Assembly (NCBI GenBank): GCA_021784845.1
Contig: JAJYHH010000114.1
Span: 1-40,088 of the forward strand
Direction: 5' to 3'
Origin: Pseudomonadota bacterium
GTDB taxonomy: Bacteria; Pseudomonadota; Gammaproteobacteria; Acidiferrobacterales; Acidiferrobacteraceae
DNA length: 40,088 nucleotides
The notes beneath the pieces are model-generated. The model was not told where the DNA came from. It searched no databases and saw only the letters and a program-made list of their open reading frames with translations. The first letter of the stretch is position 1. Each line of letters opens with the position of its first letter. Positions 37,030-40,088 of this stretch are shown here, piece by piece. A program made the position numbers and the translations under genes.

Positions 37030-40000
37030 ATGATGGCCATCACAAGCAGCGTTGATCTGGGCACTCTCGGTTGGGTCAAGGAAGAGATCGACGAGACCCT
37101 GAAGAAGGCCCGCCAGGCGCTGGAGGCCTTCACGGATAATCGGGCCGACGAGGCCCGGCTGCGGCTTTGTGCCACCTATCTGCACCAGATAGGTGGCACC
37201 CTCAAGATGGTCGAATTCGACAATCTGGCCGACCTTGTCGGCGAGGCCGAGGCGCTGGCGGAGGATCTCCTGGCAGGCGCCGAGGCGCCAAGTCCGGAGC
37301 GCCTGGAACCGCTTGTCCGGTTTGTTTTGTCGATGCCCGACGTTTTGGATGCCGCGCAGACGCGGCGCGGCGCGCTGGCGCAGTTGTGCCTGCCTTTGCT
37401 AAACGATCTGCGCGGCGCGCGCGGCTTGCCGCCGGCCGACCTGTTTGCGCTGTTCTCTCCCAGTCTCGATGTCCGCCCGCCGCACTCCAGCGTGACGGAC
37501 GAAAGGGTTCTTGGGCGTATCTTCCTGGAGCAGCGTGCGGCCTTTCAGGCCCTCCTCGTGCAATGGCTAAAGACCAGCGATGCGCTGCTGCTGACGCAGA
37601 TGCGATCCTATCTGGTCGACTGGCGCGAGCAGGCGGCGTTCATGCCCGCAGCGCAGTGCCTGTGGATTGCGGCGGGGTTCGTCGGGGTCGTGCGTGTCGA
37701 GGCACCGCCCCTGCTGGAACACAAGAAACTTTTCGGCCGGCTCGACCAGCAGTTAAAGCGCAGCGCAGACGGGCAGGACAAGGCCAGTGCCCGGGCCACC
37801 TACGAGCGCCTGAGCCGGGAGATGCTCTTTGCCATCAGCCAGAGCGGCACCTCGGACCCCGATACTGATGCCATTCGCGACGCCTTCGGGCTTGTAGTCG
37901 CCGAGGAGGCCTATCCGGTTGCTGCGATCGATGCACTGCGTTCGGTGACAAGCGCCCTTGAGCATGAGGTCGGTCATGCCCAGGAGCTTTTGTCGAGCTA
38001 TTTAGACGCCGCCGATGGCGGACATCAGATCGCTGAAGAGCTGGTGCGCCTGCTCGACAAGATGGCAAAGACGTTTACCACCCTGAACATCGCACCCCTG
38101 GCGGCACTGGCGGCCGATGTGCGGGATCTCTGCCGCGCACTGAACGAGGCCCGTGTCGAAAAATCGCCCGTGGCAGCCATGACCCTTGCCCAGGCCCTTC
38201 TTCAGGTCGAATCGGCAATTCACGAGATTCCCACGGGACGCATGGAATGGTGCACGCTCGTGGATGAGCGCCGGCGCAGCCTGCAGTCGCTTTATGCTGT
38301 TGCCGGTGATACCAGCGGCATCGAGATTTCCGAAGGTACGCTCAGTGAATATGAGACGCGCCGCCTTGTCAGTTCGGTTGGCGCGGAGATTCACGTCAAT
38401 CTCCAGCACATGGAGACCCAGTTCACGACCTTCGTTGCCGATAGTGGACAGCGTGTGCTGCTGGAGGGTTTGCCCAAACTCGCAGACCAGGTGGCGGCAG
38501 CCTTTCGCGTTCTGGGTGATGAGGCGGCAGCGGATCTGGCCCGCCACCTGAGCCATCTCCTTGAACAGCTGGCAATCGGAGCGCTACCGCCCTCGGCTGC
38601 GCGTTTTGAGGCTGTGGCGATCGGTGTGGGTGCCCTGGAGGCACAGGTAACCGGGCTCGAGCGCGGGCATGCGCTGCCGCCCGAACGTCTCGGCGTGGTC
38701 AGTGCGGGTCTGCAGCGCGCGCTGCAGGCCGAAGAGGTTCCGGCCGGATCCGGGCCATCCGTGGTTGTGGCATTGTCTGGAGCCGGCGCGCCACGGCCTG
38801 CGATTGATCCTGAGATTTTGCCGGTTTTTCTGGAAGATGCACACGAGGCGCTGCGCCAGTTGGCTGAACATATGCCCCGTTGGCGCAACCAGCGCGAGGA
38901 TGAGGAGGCGCTGACCGTCATACGGCGCGCCTTCCATACCCTGAAGGGAAGCGGTCGTATGGTCGAGGCCGGCGAGATTGCAGAACTTGCCTTCGACGCC
39001 GAGGCTCTGATGAATCGCGTGCGCGCCCGGCAGCTTACGTCCACCGACGACATCGTTCATTGGATCGGCCTTGCTCATGACGCTGTAGAGCGCTGGGTCG
39101 CTGCCATCGAACAGGATGGCGCGTTACCCGAAATGGCCGACATCCGGGCCGCACTGCAGGCGCTCGCCGATAACAGGCCGGTGCCGGCTGCGGCGCCAGC
39201 TCCCATGCCCGCCGCGCAATCTGGTCTTGCGGATGAAGCGCCCGCTGGCGGCGAGCCGCCACCACGGCCGCAGAGTGACCCGGCGCGTCGGGCGTCCCCC
39301 GGTGTGACCGGATCGCAGGATGAGCCCGTCCGCCAGGACGCCGCGGACACGGGCGCGGGTACCGGAGGAGAGCGGGATGGGATGGATCGGGTGGCCGCCG
39401 ATGACGCGGGATCCGTGCCGGCTGCGTCGGCTTCCATCTTCGACAAGGATCCGCTTTTGCGTGACATCTTCGTCACCGAGATGCGCGATCATTTGCAGGT
39501 CCTGCAGGCGGCCGCGCTCCAGGGTGTCGGCACTCCGGTGTCAGCGGCCTTGTTGCGGGCGGCGCATACGTTGCACGGGAGCGCGCGGTCGGTCTCCTTG
39601 CTTGCCATGGCAGACAGCGGTGCTGCGCTCGAGCGCTATCTGCAGGCCATGGTATCGCAAGACGCGGCACTGGATGCCGACGCGGTGACCACGCTGGCGG
39701 CGTTTACGGATCTCATGGCGCGCTTTTTGGTTGATCTGCGGGAACCGCCGCTGCGCACCGAGATGGCCGCACTCCAGGAGACGCTCGAGCATCTCGTCGC
39801 CGCGCGCGCTCCGGACCAATCGTTCACATGGTGGCAGCGGAAAGACTCCGGCGTGTCGGCGGCCGACGGCGGCGACGGGGAGAGTGCAGCCACCGAGGAG
39901 ACGGTGCCCTCGGTGGTGGCCTCCCCATCCCCGCCCCCGTTAATGCCCGAAATCGCGGTCAGTGCGCAGGATGCACAGGACATCGATCCGGAGCTGCGCG

Positions 40001-40088
40001 AGATTTTCCGTGATGAGGCGCGCGATCTGCTCGAGGCCCTCGGCGCCGCGCTGACCATGTGGCGGAGCGAACCGTCCAACGATCAGCA
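37030..40088 (+). CDS. chpA: ChpA/PilL-type hybrid histidine kinase, truncated by the window edge
   Basis: An open frame of at least 1019 codons starts at an ATG after GGGGGG and leaves the window at the right edge. It begins with the FimL/ChpA-like N-terminal region, where YLHQIGGTLKMV (H52) is a degenerate phosphotransfer-like motif. Two real HPt-type motifs follow, AFHTLKGSGRMV (H636) and AAHTLHGSARSV (H846), separated by a Pro/Ala/Asp-rich linker. A third HPt begins at the edge (IDPELREIFRDEARDLLEAL). The kinase core, CheW and receiver domains must lie beyond. It phosphorylates PilG and PilH. It lies 22 bases after pilJ with no pilK methyltransferase between. The first codons contain a perfect 14-bp inverted repeat. 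Confidence 0.92.
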   Translation, partial: MMAITSSVDLGTLGWVKEEIDETLKKARQALEAFTDNRADEARLRLCATYLHQIGGTLKMVEFDNLADLVGEAEALAEDLLAGAEAPSPERLEPLVRFVLSMPDVLDAAQTRRGALAQLCLPLLNDLRGARGLPPADLFALFSPSLDVRPPHSSVTDERVLGRIFLEQRAAFQALLVQWLKTSDALLLTQMRSYLVDWREQAAFMPAAQCLWIAAGFVGVVRVEAPPLLEHKKLFGRLDQQLKRSADGQDKASARATYERLSREMLFAISQSGTSDPDTDAIRDAFGLVVAEEAYPVAAIDALRSVTSALEHEVGHAQELLSSYLDAADGGHQIAEELVRLLDKMAKTFTTLNIAPLAALAADVRDLCRALNEARVEKSPVAAMTLAQALLQVESAIHEIPTGRMEWCTLVDERRRSLQSLYAVAGDTSGIEISEGTLSEYETRRLVSSVGAEIHVNLQHMETQFTTFVADSGQRVLLEGLPKLADQVAAAFRVLGDEAAADLARHLSHLLEQLAIGALPPSAARFEAVAIGVGALEAQVTGLERGHALPPERLGVVSAGLQRALQAEEVPAGSGPSVVVALSGAGAPRPAIDPEILPVFLEDAHEALRQLAEHMPRWRNQREDEEALTVIRRAFHTLKGSGRMVEAGEIAELAFDAEALMNRVRARQLTSTDDIVHWIGLAHDAVERWVAAIEQDGALPEMADIRAALQALADNRPVPAAAPAPMPAAQSGLADEAPAGGEPPPRPQSDPARRASPGVTGSQDEPVRQDAADTGAGTGGERDGMDRVAADDAGSVPAASASIFDKDPLLRDIFVTEMRDHLQVLQAAALQGVGTPVSAALLRAAHTLHGSARSVSLLAMADSGAALERYLQAMVSQDAALDADAVTTLAAFTDLMARFLVDLREPPLRTEMAALQETLEHLVAARAPDQSFTWWQRKDSGVSAADGGDGESAATEETVPSVVASPSPPPLMPEIAVSAQDAQDIDPELREIFRDEARDLLEALGAALTMWRSEPSNDQ
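37169..37199 (+). repeat. Perfect 14-bp inverted repeat with 3-base loop inside chpA
   Basis: GTGCCACCTATCTG (37169-37182) and its exact reverse complement (37186-37199) flank the loop CAC, which is the codon of H52. The transcript could form a very stable hairpin about 140 bases into the coding region. There is no T-run after it, so it is not a standard terminator. Confidence 0.85.

Follow-up and report, generated by a model that had tools for sequence, protein, structure and literature searches.

A perfect palindrome in chpA persists in a related genome with a compensated base-pair change

In Escherichia coli, template switching turns quasi-palindromes into perfect palindromes, as seen at the thyA hotspot and in lacZ reporters (PMC7202029). 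The palindrome described here lies in the chpA gene of a member of the Acidiferrobacteraceae and resembles the E. coli quasi-palindromes in that a small loop separates the arms of a short inverted repeat. However, mutation rates were measured in the E. coli system, whereas the chpA case is deduced from three species. In coding genes of yeast, the arms of inverted repeats are homogenised with accompanying amino acid changes, and short spacers are preferred (Abraham & Hazkani-Covo 2021, PMC8604942). Both the yeast repeats and the chpA palindrome are short, perfect and located in coding DNA, with short spacers and non-synonymous changes between the arms. The yeast study draws on strains with polarised multinucleotide events, whereas chpA offers one compensated pair across species and no spacer inversion.

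Template switching has also been proposed to maintain the hairpins of RNA genes via compensatory changes (PMC8794818), and the RNA genes resemble chpA in that template switching is the proposed source of both the perfect stems and the paired changes. These are RNA genes with known structure, whereas chpA is a protein gene without a known RNA role. In kind, the nearest known counterpart is provided by the mitochondrial coding palindromes of Nematomorpha, in which conserved residues are encoded in both arms and non-synonymous changes occur in pairs, so that the repeat stays perfect (PMC6649704). The arms evolve in concert in both cases, but the Nematomorpha palindromes are numerous and reach 284 bp, whereas chpA contributes a single 31-bp case on a bacterial chromosome. 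The chpA palindrome adds a further case to the known class of coding palindromes whose arms evolve in concert.

Position and codon register of the chpA palindrome

The window, i.e. the whole stretch of DNA analysed, comprises 40,088 nucleotides. The chpA gene starts at position 37030 on the plus strand and runs beyond the end of the window at 40088, with 1737 codons in the contig. Its product is a CheA-like (ChpA-type) chemosensory protein of the type IV pilus that contains several Hpt domains. Upstream of chpA are two response regulator genes (pilG/pilH-like), a CheW-like pilI gene and a gene for a PilJ-type receptor (pilJ). A Pfam Hpt domain at residues 13–107 includes His52, the putative phospho-accepting histidine of the domain.

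The palindrome (37169–37199, plus strand) is composed of a left arm, GTGCCACCTATCTG (37169–37182; codons 47–51), a CAC loop (37183–37185) and a right arm, CAGATAGGTGGCAC (37186–37199; codons 53–57). The arms are complementary at 14 of 14 positions, so an inverted repeat with no mismatch sits within a protein-coding gene, and both arms encode residues that are conserved in the family. The loop is exactly codon 52 (His), counted from the ATG at 37030, and lies within the Hpt domain. An earlier, sequence-only reading of this stretch had described the perfect 14-bp repeat, the placement of its loop on the H52 codon and the fit of the residues in both arms to the family, and it was right on all of these points.

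The stem follows the codon register exactly. The codon pairs GCC48/GGC56, ACC49/GGT55, TAT50/ATA54 and CTG51/CAG53 are reverse complements, and the outermost stem bases are contributed by the GT of TGT47 and the AC of ACC57. In this register, the wobble base of a codon in one arm is opposite the first base of its partner codon in the other arm, and middle bases are opposite each other. Several of the pairing codons are non-preferred in the genome of the window, including TGT (14% of Cys codons), ATA (right arm; 5.4% of Ile codons) and GGT (19% of Gly codons).

A lone 14-bp coding hairpin is not extraordinary. Windows with 14-bp arms were seen three to five times per ∼1 Mb of coding DNA and about once or less after synonymous shuffling, and since a lone hairpin is near that shuffle expectation, it is by itself only a curiosity. 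The family motif is half palindromic. Across 23 distinct 31-mers, 67.7% of the in-register cells pair, compared with 32–44% when the arms are slid. Covariation across the family is absent, with 67.7% of cells paired compared with 68.7% in shuffles among the sequences and a score equal to the shuffled mean; the high in-register pairing thus reflects motif composition and not covariation. The genome of the window contains one copy of the palindrome when up to three mismatches are allowed. A search of the same genome for the half-site gave no notable copies elsewhere, and the excess of half-site matches at two mismatches (29 compared with 6 in a control), counted collectively, is tentatively attributed to common Ala-Thr-Tyr-Leu codons.

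Persistence of the stem within the genus

Three genomes represent the genus: the genome of the window (G000), G001 (contig JAJYPD010000004.1, MAG DS3.bin34) and G002 (contig JAJYDN010000004.1, MAG DBS1-1.bin103). Over the genes of the window, G000 and G001 are 89% identical, and either is 84–85% identical to G002. The G002 site reads GTGCCAGCTATCTG-CAC-CAGATAGCTGGCAC and pairs at 14 of 14 positions. Compared with G000, the C-G pair at stem position 7 is a G-C pair in G002 (ACC..GGT to AGC..GCT). The middle base of codon 49 (37175) is C in G000 and G in G002 (AGC, Ser), and the middle base of codon 55 (37193) is G in G000 and C in G002 (GCT, Ala). One base pair has thus changed in both arms between G000 and G002, with two residue replacements (T49S and G55A), and the repeat has stayed perfect. 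The Ala codon GCT used in G002 is rare (6%, as measured on G000 genes). In G001, ACC is opposite GCG, and 12 of the 14 pairs are formed, with two adjacent mismatches.

Outside the genus, the site pairs at 5–10 of 14 positions in the sister genus and in other families of the order. Among 57 genomes, the element is confined to the three members of the genus and was found nowhere else in the order; no copy of it was found in viral contigs. The loop codon is CAC or CAT in every relative read, and inversion of the spacer, a trace of intermolecular switching that such elements may carry, was seen in none of them. One sequence from outside the genus (L006) encodes the near-identical residues CATYLHQIAGT, yet only 8 of its 14 positions pair. 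The sequence-only reading had held that relatives with the same residues and no pairing would speak against a role for the symmetry; L006, with its near-identical residues, comes close to such a relative outside the genus, whereas symmetry is kept inside it.

The perfect stem of G002 is improbable under independent codon evolution. In a model in which the G002 partner of each codon is drawn from the codon exchanges observed in the genes of the window, the probability of a perfect stem is 0.0005 when all columns are used and 0.0018 when amino acids are held except at positions 49 and 55. The 12 pairs of G001 are unremarkable under the same model (P of 0.18–0.30). The hairpin was picked in G000 alone and G002 was tested afterwards, so the G002 result constitutes an independent check. 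In the stem and loop, the codons of conserved residues are identical in all three genomes at nine of nine sites, including the rare TGT and ATA codons, whereas 39% of the conserved degenerate codons across chpA are identical in the three genomes.

As a control, hairpins measuring 10 bp or more that were detected in one genome (G000 or G002) were located in the other. Between the two genomes, one to six pairs had generally disappeared from hairpins within long open frames, and the hairpins that stayed perfect resemble intergenic terminators. Because other coding hairpins are usually broken, the chpA stem is atypical for these genomes in having persisted. The surprise of the chpA site is the perfect state that persists in G002 with a compensated pair, and this persistence is probably non-random. 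The earlier description of the palindrome as very unlikely by chance therefore applies to its persistence in G002 (chance of 0.0005–0.002) and not to the lone hairpin, which is near the shuffle expectation.

Proposed template switching between the arms

The reading that we prefer, and to which we give about an even chance of being correct, is that of a coding palindrome kept symmetric by replication template switching, without a dedicated function. The seed would be the Hpt helix motif C-A-T/S-Y-L-H-Q-I/V-x-G-T, which is already half palindromic in the family, given that in the codon register GCC is the reverse complement of GGC and CTG that of CAG. In the ancestor of the genus, the palindrome would have turned perfect or nearly perfect. 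At stalled replication, the polymerase may use one arm as the template for the other (quasipalindrome template switching), and such copying would either erase mismatches or put a new base into both arms, resulting in concerted evolution. Since wobble bases pair with first positions, almost any symmetric change would alter the protein, and only tolerated swaps (T49 with G55, or S49 with A55) would survive. Only 1 of the 42 double changes that hold the pairing is synonymous, and 8 of the 42 are compatible with the family residues; the observed swap is among the 8. Synonymous sites would look frozen for the same reason, and the frozen sites need no separate cause.

Template switching would explain the perfect palindrome, the C-G to G-C swap at two residues and the imperfect stem of G001, whose two adjacent mismatches are expected if correction is stochastic. 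The missing spacer inversion could be explained by its consequence for the protein, because inversion would convert His52 into Val and would be removed by selection if that histidine matters. Of the three options offered by the sequence-only reading, the one termed a recombination mark comes closest, provided that it is read as template switching between the arms.

Hairpin counts in called genes are consistent with homogenisation. With chpA excluded and open reading frames called by a simple rule, perfect 12-bp hairpins numbered 7 in G000 and 4 in G002, small counts that compare with 2.2 and 1.5, respectively, in synonymous shuffles. For 12-bp hairpins with one mismatch, the corresponding values were 57 versus 44 in G000 and 22 versus 21 in G002, and hairpins with two mismatches were hardly above the shuffles. 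The excess lies mainly in perfect arms, which is what homogenisation predicts. We prefer homogenisation on two grounds: it invokes no unknown function, and the perfect-arm excess spans unrelated genes.

The fewest changes (three) would be required if AGC..GCT, the form found in G002, was the state of the common ancestor and if G000 and G001 are sisters. AGC would then have changed to ACC before the G000/G001 split, and GCT would have changed to GGT in G000, restoring symmetry, and to GCG in G001. This direction is tentative, because both positions vary in the sister genus, with Thr and Ser both occurring at residue 49 and several residues at 55. The direction of the changes is an inference, and so is the role of template switching, in place of selection on a hairpin, in maintaining the match between the arms. 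The single compensated pair is the entire covariation record of the three genus genomes.

Coding hairpins were also noted in two other genes. A pilR-like gene of G002 (L118:11325–11356) contains a perfect 16-bp palindrome with zero loop. Its G000 orthologue (L162, near 19.0 kb) has five base differences, confined to the left arm; among them is a GTG/TGC triple change (Val/Cys), and the pattern looks like a one-arm template-switch event, although it is unpolarised. A pgk-like gene (G000 L066:2124–2155; G001 L057:10547–10578) contains an 11-bp coding hairpin with a loop of 10, in which GAT..ACA of G000 corresponds to GAC..ACG of G001, a compensated synonymous double change. The pgk-like hairpin was considered as parallel evidence and set aside as weak, given that its changes are at third positions and that it is broken in G002.

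Alternative explanations and significance

Selection on a hairpin would predict the compensated swap and the frozen synonymous sites just as well. An mRNA hairpin located 140 nt into chpA would slow ribosomes, pace the folding of the first Hpt domain or act as an RNase processing site that tunes chpA relative to pilJ, and we consider this explanation possible but not likely. Its predicted stem is stable (−24.3 kcal/mol in both G000 and G002, −17.3 kcal/mol in G001), and the region folds 6.2 sd below dinucleotide shuffles. However, two adjacent pairs are broken in G001, and the rest of the family carries the same gene without conservation or covariation of the stem. An Rfam search of the site returned nothing near the gathering score, and no promoter-like site was found near the palindrome. 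Of the mRNA hairpin proposed by the sequence-only reading, the stable predicted stem stands, but no T-tract, Rfam match, promoter or structure conserved outside the genus accompanies it. A more specific version, in which a functional hairpin peculiar to the genus covers the codon of the putative phosphotransfer His in the first ChpA Hpt domain and selection on it is strong enough to drive the paired residue changes, making residues of the signalling protein subject to a nucleic-acid structure, appears rather improbable.

The suggested attenuation of chpA by the hairpin found no support. No intrinsic terminator or attenuator is recognisable at the palindrome, where the stem is followed by CCTCAAGATGG without an immediate T-run. 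Farther into chpA, three matches to a terminator-like stem and T-run were found at 37303–37342, compared with 0.7 expected. An attenuator using these T-rich sites was rejected, as G001 and G002 have not retained the T-rich codons. Directly after the palindrome come two imperfect hairpins (37205–37226 and 37225–37245), so that the predicted mRNA fold shows several stems in a row; G001 and G002 retain these two hairpins only in part.

Coincidence combined with common descent is also unlikely. It would require a chance palindrome in the ancestor of the genus and one lucky double change in G002, with neither process nor function involved. The motif is half palindromic throughout the family, with ∼68% of in-register cells able to pair as in shuffles, a 14-bp window should occur about once per Mb of coding DNA, and the pairing in G001 is unremarkable, all of which suit coincidence. 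The low probability of the perfect G002 stem argues against it, as does the lack of comparable persistence in other coding hairpins. Moreover, the rare codons ATA and TGT, together with GCT in G002, all serve pairing.

A DNA operator or protein-binding palindrome within the pil-chp operon, which the sequence-only reading had also raised, is very improbable. The near-perfect dyad symmetry is typical of sites for dimeric regulators, and the change in G002 is symmetric. However, the site is present in a single copy per genome, even at three mismatches in G000, and is intragenic with no promoter-like site nearby; its half-sites vary between species and are unequal in G001, and an operator would give no reason for the length and the exact codon register. 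An assembly or binning artefact can be virtually dismissed, because although G000 is a fragmented short-read MAG (117 contigs, 80% complete), the palindrome recurs with different bases in a second genome that was assembled independently, where the open reading frame is intact and family residues are encoded.

The chpA palindrome is a compact bacterial case of mutual constraint between DNA symmetry and protein sequence. Frozen synonymous sites and compensatory pairs are usually taken as proof of functional RNA; if template switching holds, both can arise without one. Likewise, the T49S replacement together with G55A could come from the mechanics of mutation and not from adaptation of the protein. 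The chpA site provides a ready-made test for telling template switching from functional RNA.
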